Assembly: GCF_000685215.1 (NCBI RefSeq)
Contig: NZ_ARYJ01000001.1
Coordinates: 372,001 to 436,000 of the forward strand
Origin: Hyphomonas jannaschiana VP2
GTDB lineage: Bacteria > Pseudomonadota > Alphaproteobacteria > Caulobacterales > Hyphomonadaceae
Direction: 5' to 3'
DNA length: 64,000 nt
How positions within the stretch are numbered: the stretch's first letter is position 1; every line of letters begins with the position of its first letter. A program made the position numbers and the translations under genes. Under the pieces are notes generated by a model. It was not told the DNA's origin and searched no databases. It saw only the letters and a list, made by a program, of their open reading frames with translations. Positions 13,676-17,601 of the stretch are shown one piece after another.

Positions 13676-14296
13676 CTATTCCAGTTCGGGATCTAATGCG
13701 TCTTGAACCTGACTGACCGGCGAAGGGTTCTCAGACAGGTTCTCAAAAATATCTTCTTCGCTGCGCGTGCAGGCCTTCACACGCCGGGCGGGTGAGTTCT
13801 TCGACAGGCCTTCAACTTCCCAGCAGCGTTTGAACACAGAGCAATAGCAGACCAGCATGGTCAGCTCGCCCCACTTGTCAGCCGTTTCCGCCTGCACGGC
13901 CGGGCTGATGGCGTCCGCCGGCCAGGAAATCCGCAAGGCGTTGATCGTTTCCCCCGGCGCGACAGCGCGCCCGACCATGCTCGTCCATGACAGGTCGTAA
14001 CCGCCCGGCAGCGTTTCACGATAGGCATCAAGACTGTCCAGCCGTTCGTCATCTTCCAGTATGTCGACCGATTCGATCAGCGCCGGCCCGACACCGCTGT
14101 TGCGGAACCGGACACCAATGTCGCGGACATGCGGTTCTGTGGAGACATATCCATCGGCCTGCAGCACCGGGTAGACAGAGCCGTGCTGCTGGGCCCGCAT
14201 GACGCGGCCCTGGTCCCAGGCAATGAAGACCGCGAGCGCGCTGGTCACCACCGCGCAGATCGCAATCACCATTTCAACCTTGTTGCCTGTGCCCAT
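13676..14296 (-). CDS. Membrane-anchored protein of unknown function between pheS and pheT
   Basis: I do not recognise this 206-residue protein. A single N-terminal hydrophobic helix (about residues 8-26) is followed by a soluble domain that starts with QHGSVYPVLQADG and continues with alternating strands (VRFRNSGVGPALIESVDIL). This resembles the beta-rich extracytoplasmic part of small one-TM proteins. The C-terminal third contains several cysteines (MLVCYCSVFKRCWEVEG) and an acidic tail. The stop lies 3 bases before the pheT start and the start lies 9 bases after the ASCH stop, so it is part of the pheS-pheT transcript. No catalytic motif is visible. Confidence 0.75.
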   Translation of the reverse strand: MGTGNKVEMVIAICAVVTSALAVFIAWDQGRVMRAQQHGSVYPVLQADGYVSTEPHVRDIGVRFRNSGVGPALIESVDILEDDERLDSLDAYRETLPGGYDLSWTSMVGRAVAPGETINALRISWPADAISPAVQAETADKWGELTMLVCYCSVFKRCWEVEGLSKNSPARRVKACTRSEEDIFENLSENPSPVSQVQDALDPELE

Positions 14297-14305
14297 GCCC
14301 GCCTC

Positions 14306-14755
14306 CTACGCCACGGCCCCGGCGCGTTCCTGCGCGAGGTGCTGAGGGGCCGCCGCCGCGAACGCGTCATCGAGAACTTTCTCCAGACGGAAGGTTTCAA
14401 AGAACACATCCATGTCTTCTGCGAACACGCCATTCCGGGTGAAATACTCCCGGTGCGCACGCTGCCAGTAGTCGAGACTGAGATCGCCCTCGCCTTCCAG
14501 CGCAGCCAGTTCCTCTGTCACGTCAGCGAATTTCATACGCGTGACCGTTTCGGTTTGCAGGATCGCAACCCGTCGGCCATCGCCGCTCATCAGGTAGCCG
14601 CGCTCACCCTCCACCGGCACTGGCTGGATGCCTGTGTCGCTGCAGGTGGCGGTCTTCACACCCGCCACGATCAGCGCCGCCAGACGGTCGGCCAGTTCGG
14701 GGCCATCCCCGAAAGTCCATTCCGGCAGATCAGAGGAGGAAGGGCTCGCCGTCAC
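14306..14755 (-). CDS. ASCH-domain protein, translationally coupled to pheS
   Basis: A 149-residue protein of the ASCH superfamily, a PUA-like fold thought to bind RNA or nucleotides. Visible family features are [17 protein letters not shown], then the VKTATCS stretch, the strand [16 protein letters not shown], and [16 protein letters not shown] followed by [10 protein letters not shown]. The GTG start at 14755 overlaps the pheS stop in a GTGA arrangement, and GGAGGG lies 5 bases upstream inside the pheS 3' end, so translation is coupled. The frame is open to 14932, but that extra part is the antisense-like shadow of pheS. Its place in the PheRS operon is compatible with an RNA-related role, which is inference only. 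Confidence 0.88.
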
Positions 14756-15828
14756 GACAGCCCTCCGCTGACGGAGGGCGTGCTCCACGGCGCGAAGCCG
14801 TAATGGCGGGTCCATTGCGGATCGGCCTCGAAATACGGGCGCAGGTCCGGCATGCCATATTTCAGCATGGCCAGGCGGTCGATCCCCATACCGAAGGCAA
14901 AGCCCTGATATTCGTTCGGGTCGATGCCGCAATTGCGCAGCACATTCGGATGCACCATGCCGGAGCCGAGAATCTCCATCCAGCTGTCGCCGGCGCCGAT
15001 CTCGATCGTCTCGCCCTTGCGGGTGTATTTCACGTCCATCTCGGCCGACGGCTCCGTGAACGGAAAGAAGTGCGGGCGGAAGCGGGCTTCCACAGTGTCG
15101 ACTTCGAAGAAGGCTTTGACGAAATCGATCAGGCAGCCTTTCAGATGCCCCATATGGGTGCCCTTCTCGATGACGAGACCTTCGACCTGATGGAACATTG
15201 GCGTGTGCGTCGCATCCCAGTCGTTCCGGTAAACCCGGCCCGGCACGAGAATGCGGATCGGCGGCTTCTGGTCCATCATGGTGCGGATCTGCACGGGCGA
15301 GGTGTGCGTACGCAGCACTTTCGGCGTGTCGCCTTCCTGCGCCTTCATGAAGAAGGTGTCGTGCGTCTCGCGGGCCGGGTGGCCTTCAGGGAAGTTCAGC
15401 GCGGTGAAATTGTGCCAGTCGTCTTCCACGTCCGGGCCTTCGGCCACGGTGAAGCCCATGTCGCCGAAGATGGCCGCGACTTCCTCGAACACCTGCATGA
15501 CCGGGTGCAGCGCGCCAGCCTTGGGGCCTGGCGACGGCGGCAGGGTCAGGTCCAGCTTTTCGCTGGCCAGCTGTTTCTCCAGCGCCTCGGCTTCCAGCTC
15601 GGTCTTGCGGGCGGTGATCGCATCATTCACGCGGTTCTTCAGCGCGTTCAGCTTCGGGCCGTTTTCCTTGCGCTCTTCCGGGCTCATCTTGCCCAGCGAG
15701 CCCATCAGGCCGGAGACCCTGCCCTTCTTGCCAAGCTCTGCCACGCGCACCGCGTCCAGCGCTTCCAGGTCAGCCGCTGCGGCGACGGCCGCCAGCGCTT
15801 CGTTTTCGATGGTCGTAATATCGGACAA
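14752..15828 (-). CDS. pheS: Phenylalanine--tRNA ligase alpha subunit (TTG start)
   Basis: The catalytic alpha subunit of PheRS, 358 residues. The N-terminal coiled coil ([18 protein letters not shown]) precedes the class II core: motif 2 around [10 protein letters not shown] and [20 protein letters not shown], and motif 3 [17 protein letters not shown]. The start is chosen as TTG 15828, preceded by AGGGG with 7-base spacing, which yields [11 protein letters not shown], aligning with the family N-terminus. An in-frame ATG at 15912 would add 28 residues and would run through a terminator-like hairpin. The hairpin and an alternative pairing partner sit in the leader upstream of the start. Confidence 0.96.
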
Positions 15829-15898
15829 GGTCTTGCCCCTTTTATGTTTCCGCGGGCTTTGTAGGCGCTTCGCGGGATCATGCAAATCCGGAAACGGA

Positions 15899-15924
15899 AA
15901 AGCCCGGCACACCGGCCGGGCTTT
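15899..15924 (-). terminator. Hairpin in the pheS leader, terminator or attenuator
   Basis: A perfect 10-bp stem (AAAGCCCGGC with GCCGGGCTTT) and a 6-base loop. Read on the minus strand it is followed by TTCCGTTTCC, a modest U-rich tail. It lies 66 bases after the small basic gene and 70 bases before pheS. The 8-base stretch complementary to one arm occurs again at 15853-15860, so the descending arm could pair there instead. It may simply end the infC-rpmI-rplT transcript. Confidence 0.6.
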
Positions 15925-15989
15925 CTCTCATTCAATTCGGCGGCTGCCTTTTCAGGCGGTCACCGGCGGCGCGGGGCCTGTCAGAAAGC

Positions 15990-16151
15990 TTACTTGCCGG
16001 CAGCTTTCTTGCGGGCGATCCGTGCGCGCTTGGTGTTGCCAAACACGCGGACTTTCGCGCGCTTGCCGAGATTGGCCTTCCAGGTCGCGTTGCGGCGCTT
16101 GACGCGCGGCTTCTTCGCCGGGTGCAGAACGGAGTTCGGGGACTTCGACAT
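15990..16151 (-). CDS. Small highly basic protein, 53 residues, between rplT and pheS
   Basis: A short gene of 54 codons. The protein begins MSKSPNSVLHPAKKPRVKRR and ends ARIARKKAAGK, with about a third of residues Lys or Arg. A Shine-Dalgarno AGGAA lies 7 bases upstream of the ATG, codon use is GC-rich like the neighbours, and it starts 28 bases after the rplT stop in the same direction. Composition and position suggest an RNA- or ribosome-binding protein. I do not recognise it as a named ribosomal protein, and no fold or motif can be claimed from sequence alone. Confidence 0.78.
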   Translation of the reverse strand: MSKSPNSVLHPAKKPRVKRRNATWKANLGKRAKVRVFGNTKRARIARKKAAGK

Positions 16152-16179
16152 CGGGAAATTCCTGACTGGTCTTTATGAC

Positions 16180-16542
16180 TTAAGCGAGGGCCGCTTTGGC
16201 CTGGGCCACCAGGGCGCCGAATGCGTCCGGATCCTTGATGGCGATGTCGGACATGACTTTCCGGTCGACTTCGATGCCGGCTTTGGTCAGGCCGTTGATG
16301 AACTGCGAGTAGTTCATCTCGTCGTCGTGGATGCGGACAGCGGCGTTGATGCGCTGGATCCAGAGCGAGCGGAACTTCCGCTTTTTGACTTTACGGCCGA
16401 CATAGGCGTACTGGCCGGCTTCCCAGACGGACTGGTTGGCGATGCGGAACGTATTCTTGCGGCGGTTACGGAAACCCTTTGCCTGCTTCAGGATTTTCTT
16501 GTGGCGGGCGTGGGCAGGAACTTTAGCGCGGGAGCGGGGCAT
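16180..16542 (-). CDS. rplT: 50S ribosomal protein L20 (bL20)
   Basis: A standard 120-residue L20. The N-terminal basic extension [20 protein letters not shown] and the block [19 protein letters not shown] are diagnostic. It binds 23S rRNA early in 50S assembly and in enterobacteria represses its own operon. GGAGG precedes the ATG with good spacing. It follows rpmI after 46 bases in the usual infC-rpmI-rplT order. Confidence 0.99.
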
Positions 16543-16588: not shown

Positions 16589-16789
16589 TTAGAGGCCGTA
16601 CGGCAGGAACTTTTTCACACGGGCTTCATCGGCCTTTGCACCGACGGACGTGCCGCGGTTCTGGCGGATGTACTTTGCATTGTGGCTGATCAGGCGGTGA
16701 CGCTTGCCAGCGACGCCGTGCTTCAGCTTGCCCGTTGCGGTGATCTTGAAGCGCTTTGCAGCGGCCTTCTTGGTCTTCATCTTCGGCAT
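16589..16789 (-). CDS. rpmI: 50S ribosomal protein L35 (bL35)
   Basis: A 66-residue L35, MPKMKTKKAAAKRFKITATG through HRLISHNAKYIRQNRG. The start at 16789 follows AAGGAG and matches the family N-terminus; the frame is open 18 codons further but without family similarity. The 272 bases between infC and this gene hold a strong hairpin, so rpmI-rplT may be partly uncoupled from infC. Confidence 0.98.
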   Translation of the reverse strand: MPKMKTKKAAAKRFKITATGKLKHGVAGKRHRLISHNAKYIRQNRGTSVGAKADEARVKKFLPYGL

Positions 16790-17061: not shown

Positions 17062-17601
17062 TTATCGCGGTGAGAGCACCATCGTCATCTGGCGGCCTTC
17101 GAGCTTCGGTTCCAGCTCGACTTTCGCCATTTCGTCGAAGTCTTCCTTCACCCGGTTCAGCAGTTCCATGCCGAGATGCTGGTGCGCCATTTCCCGGCCG
17201 CGGAAGCGCAGGGTGACCTTCACCTTGTCGCCTGCCTCAAAGAAGCGCGTCATCGCCTTCGCTTTGACTTCATAGTCATGCACGTCGATGTTCGGACGCA
17301 TCTTGATTTCTTTGAGTTCGGAATTCTTCTGCTTCTTCTTCGCAGCGGCTTTCTTCTTCCGCTCTTCGAAACGCAGCTTGCCATAGTCGAGAATCTTGAC
17401 GACGGGGACTTCCTGGTTCGGCGAAACCTCGACTAGGTCCATACCCGCTTCGCGGGCAGCGTCGAGCGCGGCGGAAATCGGCATGACGCCCTGTTTCTCA
17501 CCGTTTTCGTCGATCAACAGGACCTTTGCGGCCCGGATGTCGTCATTTGTGCGCGGTCCCTTATCTTTCTGGGGCGCTTCGTTCATTGGTCTGCGAGCTA
17601 T
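17062..17601 (-). CDS. infC: Translation initiation factor IF-3, probable AUA start codon
   Basis: IF-3 prevents premature subunit joining and proofreads the start codon. Both domains are present: the N-domain ([31 protein letters not shown]), the basic linker ([15 protein letters not shown]), and the C-domain ([26 protein letters not shown]). The first in-frame ATG is at 17586 but has no ribosome site close by. An AUA codon at 17601 lies 6 bases after GGAGA and yields MARRP, the N-terminus common in alphaproteobacterial IF-3. A rare start codon fits the autoregulation known from E. coli infC, which uses AUU. Confidence 0.93.

Follow-up and report, generated by a model that had tools for sequence, protein, structure and literature searches.

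A small basic gene after rplT in part of the genus Hyphomonas, probably encoding a young ribosome-associated protein

In the 64,000-nucleotide stretch of the Hyphomonas jannaschiana VP2 genome that we analyzed (the window; host genome, 3.64 Mb), a frame of 53 codons, here called ORF53, lies between rplT and pheS. Is this frame a gene, to which transcription unit does it belong, where did it come from, and what might its product do? The features on which the answers turn are as follows.

14752..15837, minus strand: pheS frame, 3' of the hairpin; its start codon is approximate
15896..15927, minus strand: terminator-like hairpin in the ORF53/pheS interval, found by scan; 15890-15940 folds at -22.5 kcal/mol (z -4.3)
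15990..16151, minus strand: ORF53, 53-aa basic gene, from ATG at 16151 to TAA at 15990
16159..16163, minus strand: ribosome-binding site AGGAA of ORF53, 7 bases 5' of the ATG
16180..16542, minus strand: rplT (bL20) frame
16589..16789, minus strand: rpmI (bL35) frame, 66 aa
16975..17015, minus strand: strong hairpin in the infC/rpmI interval, terminator-like with a weak T run; -27.3 kcal/mol (z -5.6)
17062..17586, minus strand: infC (IF3) frame, 5' of the unit

A short frame conserved as a coding gene

The initial annotation, which gave no strand, had described a clean short gene with a good ribosome site 28 bases past rplT, and both the coordinates and the AGGAA motif agree with it: the rplT frame ends at 16180, 28 bases from the start of ORF53. 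Either AGGAA or GGAGAG precedes the ATG in the 16 homologues examined for it. The product, MSKSPNSVLHPAKKPRVKRRNATWKANLGKRAKVRVFGNTKRARIARKKAAGK, had been called about one third Lys/Arg, which the count bears out at 19 of 53 residues (36%). It contains no Asp or Glu, one Phe and one Trp, with a calculated pI of 12.0 and a mass of 5,966 Da. Acidic residues are absent from 24 of the 27 homologues.

Could ORF53 be open by chance, or be non-coding DNA misread as a gene? Its length would allow this, as an ATG frame this long, with a start within 60 bases, occurs in 18% of random stretches drawn from a Markov model whose training sequence was the rplT-pheS gap, ORF53 itself included. Length alone is therefore weak evidence. 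Frames as basic as ORF53 arise in 1.7% of stretches under the same model. It is conservation, not length, that takes ORF53 beyond chance. Across the 27 genes from genomes that have it (carriers), which encode 19 distinct proteins, the frame is never broken, 31 of 53 residues are invariant, and variable sites fall at codon positions 1, 2 and 3 in the numbers 19, 15 and 49. The 23 other proteins in the alignment are 72-98% identical to that of the window. The median dN/dS is 0.186, with one pair at or above 1, over 335 usable pairs of 351 (the usable pairs have at least 4 differences and no extreme dS, and are mutually non-independent); the Ka/Ks near 1 that the initial annotation had named as grounds for abandoning the gene is thus not what we observe. 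Judged by its conservation, ORF53 is a real protein-coding gene, and the chance-frame reading, already refuted on these grounds, keeps almost none of our credence.

Place in the rpmI-rplT unit

The minus strand reads infC, strong hairpin, rpmI, rplT, ORF53, terminator-like hairpin, pheS. The infC-rpmI hairpin was found by folding and was not reported by the hairpin scan, which covered loops of up to 10 bases. This hairpin, at -27.3 kcal/mol, may separate the transcription of rpmI-rplT-ORF53 from that of infC.

We compared 40 loci extracted from the genus, with ORF53 present in all 27 carriers and absent from all 13 non-carriers. ORF53 lies directly 3' of rplT in 27 of 27 carrier loci, at a gap of 11-35 bases; in the carrier G035, the contig begins inside rplT. 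By scan, a hairpin with a T run follows the unit in 36 of the 40 loci, whereas a simple shuffle, applied once to each region, gave 0 of 40 at the same bar. In every non-carrier (13/13), a hairpin that is rich in G+C and has a T run starts 20-26 bases past rplT; among the 27 carriers, 23 have the scan hairpin 28-65 bases past ORF53. The other four carriers (G011, G024, G315 and G332) have none by scan; visual inspection shows a longer hairpin there, its stem interrupted. As the non-carrier hairpin follows rplT so closely, ORF53 sits inside the rpmI-rplT unit. Gene order and hairpins, both read from sequence, thus indicate that ORF53 is the last (third) gene of an rpmI-rplT-ORF53 unit that ends in its own predicted terminator, and so that it shares one transcription unit with ribosomal-protein genes, as would be expected of a gene for a ribosomal protein.

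The initial annotation had gone further and placed ORF53 inside a ribosomal-protein/PheRS transcript, a claim contradicted by the terminator-like hairpin before pheS. Because of this hairpin, and because the rplT-pheS gap widens to 816-1,378 bases in one carrier subclade (L014-L020), a transcript common to ORF53 and the PheRS genes appears unlikely. The same evidence bears on another reading. In E. coli, the gene order is rplT-pheM-pheS, and pheM encodes a leader peptide; ORF53 occupies the same place and might be a PheM-like leader controlling pheST. Unlike PheM, however, it has a single Phe in 53 residues, is under selection at the protein level, and is separated from pheS by the terminator-like hairpin and, in L014-L020, by the widened gap. 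A run of Phe codons with an attenuator governing pheS, the mark of a PheM-type leader, was not found. The leader reading is already contradicted, and we consider it extremely improbable.

The neighborhood of pheS has features of its own. Other frames lie inside the wide gap of L014-L020, including, between ORF53 and pheS, a frame that looks conserved, with 177-193 aa in 6 of 7 loci (105 aa in L018). At 13676-14932 of the window (minus strand), pheS and pheT are non-adjacent: two frames intervene, one with an ASCH domain (PF04266, E = 6.7e-18) and one of 206 aa with no Pfam match; in several relatives, pheT directly follows pheS.

Distribution and origin

How widely is ORF53 found? An initial search of 61 genomes detected it in 24 of the 37 from the genus and in none of the others, each time at E < 1e-18, with all other hits at E > 0.06. 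When 398 genomes of the order were searched with a profile, the carriers G063, G315, G332 and G349 were added, for a total of 28 of the 41 Hyphomonas genomes with detectable rplT; G369 (83% complete), in which neither rplT nor ORF53 was detected, is excluded from the 41. When two short conserved peptides were scanned against 84,980 species genomes, 19 of 147 matches encoded an ORF53 relative, and all 19 contigs correspond to Hyphomonas genomes, H. polymorpha PS728 (L080) among them. Four loci titled Acidobacteria or Candidatus Sulfopaludibacter (L074, L077, L078 and L085) are of the Hyphomonas type and look like mislabelled metagenome bins.

Outside the genus, a class sample of 385 genomes gave no convincing match, and no homologue was listed among the frames after rplT in 40 loci from other genera of the family or after rplT in 24 loci from other families. 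Phage, plasmid and viral collections gave no match either, one pattern scan returning 24 matches of which 0 were confirmed. Weak hits outside the genus (E 0.0004-0.01) came from five genomes in the order search and four in the class sample. None of these nine loci has rplT, rpmI, infC or pheST in the stretches examined (a second place in G341 excluded), and we take the hits as chance because they do not adjoin rplT, infC or pheST there. Thus, among the genomes sampled, ORF53 is limited to Hyphomonas, and where the initial annotation had looked to conservation across the alphaproteobacteria, convincing matches are confined to this one genus. In another genus of the family, G393 (L164, L256) has a 42-aa frame 20 bases past rplT with 40% Lys/Arg; it has no Pfam match, is seen in 1 of 105 family genomes and may be chance. 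Among the matches listed from titles and abstract openings of open-licence papers, none pointed to ORF53.

For the history of the gene, our main tree used 25 proteins of the S10-spc-alpha region (8 spurious frames having been removed from 33 candidates; 4,271 columns) from 36 genomes: 20 of the 28 carriers, 12 of the 13 non-carriers and 4 outgroups. Left out were G014, G033 and G035, which had no uL2 match, as well as G349, G001, G010, G011, G022 and G027. In this tree, the 20 carriers form one clade inside the genus (ultrafast bootstrap 90, SH-aLRT 98; not starred by the tool), with two groups of non-carriers outside it, and 92% of 200 bootstrap trees require one change of ORF53 state. Forcing the non-carriers together was not rejected (p-AU 0.074), and a smaller tree built from rpmI, rplT, pheS and pheT divides the carriers into two groups, on unstarred branches of 91 and 81. 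A history of one gain and no loss is favoured by these trees, though not proven. From the rplT stop to the hairpin, carriers are about 185-240 bases longer than non-carriers; ORF53 therefore came with extra DNA and not by the opening of a frame in the old gap of 20-26 bases. Birth de novo may be one option and transfer from an unsampled source another.

We also compared bL35 and bL20 between the carrier loci and non-carriers L031-L043. In 13 of 13 non-carriers, the C-terminal tail of bL35 has Val55 and an extra residue, Val or Met 59, which 26 of 26 carriers lack; at position 6 of bL20, the 26 carriers have Ala and the 13 non-carriers Asn. Differences fixed between the two sets number 3 in bL35 (positions 50, 55 and 59) and 1 in bL20, against 20 in the 4,292 columns of the other 25 proteins. 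This looks like an excess in bL35. The outgroups are mixed for bL35, carriers have a state that also occurs in outgroups at 2 of its 3 sites, and the tail varies widely; for these reasons, we hold the excess as a lead and not as evidence. Screening ribosomal-protein residues for co-variation gave no clear contact site.

Possible function of the ORF53 product

If ORF53 encodes a ribosomal protein, then its codon use should resemble that of highly expressed genes. The codon index, for which the S10-region ribosomal proteins of the same genome served as reference, is 0.745 for ORF53 of the window. Windows of 53 codons from ribosomal-protein genes (n = 52) have a median of 0.751, and 294 background windows, which were taken from 38 long frames picked mechanically in the window, some perhaps spurious, a median of 0.559. 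The value of ORF53 is reached by 20 of the 294, and by 1 of 5,000 draws in which its protein was rewritten in background codons. When the one background from this window was applied to all 20 carriers with an S10 region, codon use was above background (p < 0.05) in 16; in G016, G018, G023 and G031, it was not, and was below the expectation for ribosomal-protein codons. The codon use of highly expressed genes is thus found in the window and in 16 of 20 carriers and is missing from four. From this bias we infer that the product may be abundant.

Searches for relatives of the protein found nothing convincing in Pfam, NCBIfam or PHROGs. Pfam gave no match for any of 24 members, with E allowed up to 10, and the weak NCBIfam hits were to unrelated models (BfrA, E 0.11, in 5 of 24; TrbI-like, E 0.083, in 1 of 24). 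An identity with bS22 (AURKAIP1/COX24), Sra or another catalogued ribosomal protein was rejected, as no Pfam or NCBIfam model matched. bTHX (Thx, PF17070), a small, basic, lineage-variable ribosomal protein, came into consideration through the tail FGNTK.AR; unlike bTHX, ORF53 does not match the Thx profile. None of 105 family genomes holds a Thx over the cut-off, by a model that is narrow, as its control exceeded the cut-off in only 1 of 14 named genomes. A hit of the antisense frame to DUF6127 (E 0.0085, under the cut-off) was not repeated in 7 homologues. Replacement of a lost bL34, bL36 or bS21 was also rejected, all three being kept in 32 of 32 genomes (19 carriers, 13 non-carriers).

Among PDB sequences there was no convincing match (best profile hit, eukaryotic uS12, E = 0.64), and Foldseek matched no PDB fold with a low-confidence model as query. 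By these sequence and model searches, we found no convincing relation of ORF53 to any ribosomal protein. AlphaFold, run on a 20-row alignment, predicts helices at 16-38 and 41-52 (mean pLDDT 70.5, pTM 0.28). The prediction describes a helical, open chain that takes up no confident fold by itself. Proteins that fold on RNA would be expected to look like this, although the feature is not specific to them.

The place of the gene, its codon bias and its retention fit a ribosome-linked product, and ORF53 is probably a young, ribosome-associated protein. Specifically, we favour, with moderate confidence, a model in which it is a lineage-specific, rRNA-binding ribosomal or ribosome-associated protein of no known family that works like bS22 or bL37. 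In such a model, rpmI, rplT and ORF53 would be co-transcribed, the transcript ending at its own predicted terminator. ORF53 would be translated, in step with bL35 and bL20, into an abundant, very basic 6-kDa protein with little fold of its own. As its composition and company suggest, this protein would fold onto rRNA and stay on the ribosome, where it may have a role in assembly or stability.

Speaking against a ribosomal role are the 13 close relatives that have no ORF53, and the basic composition, which suits any nucleic acid, would also serve a DNA or RNA binder unconnected with the ribosome. ORF53 could then be a small protein that binds nucleic acid or regulates, for instance by binding mRNA or DNA or by autoregulating rpmI-rplT, and that sits in the operon merely for high, growth-linked expression; the lack of a match to any ribosomal-protein family agrees with this. 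Its constant position after rpmI-rplT in the extracted carrier loci and its codon use in 16 of 20 carriers argue otherwise, and we think such a protein unlikely. Operon and codon evidence would fit equally well a transient factor for ribosome assembly, hibernation or stress, not a stable component, and that 13 relatives manage without ORF53 would suit such a factor too. We regard this as rather improbable, since ORF53 of the window matches core ribosomal proteins in the strength of its codon bias, which points to steady high output, an argument that fails in 4 of 20 carriers.

Returning to the preferred reading, an rRNA-binding ribosomal or ribosome-associated protein, we propose tentatively, as something possible that we would stop short of calling probable, that ORF53, a small basic gene for which we detect no ancestry, was gained by the rpmI-rplT unit in a single event within Hyphomonas, that its product came to be bound to rRNA as a ribosomal component, and that no sampled genome of the carrier clade has lost it since, while sister species keep the ancestral ribosome. 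If true, this would provide a living before-and-after pair for the acquisition of a ribosomal protein. The simplest placement of the gain is a single branch within the genus, and sister species without the gene are at hand; if ORF53 is ribosomal, the step of acquisition would be open to study by comparison of close relatives and by gene deletion. If it is not, ORF53 would join the other small, lineage-limited proteins encoded in ribosomal operons.

Several known proteins offer a comparison. Excerpts of three reports describe bS22 (AURKAIP1/COX24 type) and bL37 of actinobacteria, and bS22 and bL38 of Borrelia, as tiny, lineage-limited proteins that were unannotated as ribosomal until cryo-EM, once with mass spectrometry, and bS22 as a very basic helix bound in rRNA (PMC10085706; PMC5876184; PMC10618245). 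ORF53 is likewise tiny and lineage-limited, its link to the ribosome being a suggested one. It differs from bS22 and bL37 in that we found no sequence relation to either, in its length (53 aa, compared to 33 aa for bS22 and 24 aa for bL37) and in its confinement to part of one genus; it is also less basic, at 36%, than bS22 and eL41, for which an excerpt gives 55-65% (PMC10085706). That extra small proteins are found in the ribosomes of different lineages, and that the route of their acquisition is an open question, is stated in an excerpt of work on microsporidian ribosomes, which proposes for msL1 and msL2 the capture by rRNA of a small, positively charged, newborn unfolded protein (PMC10764239). 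Whereas msL1 and msL2 are eukaryotic and have been seen in structures, and ORF53 is known from its sequence alone, the scenario as given there fits the pattern of ORF53.
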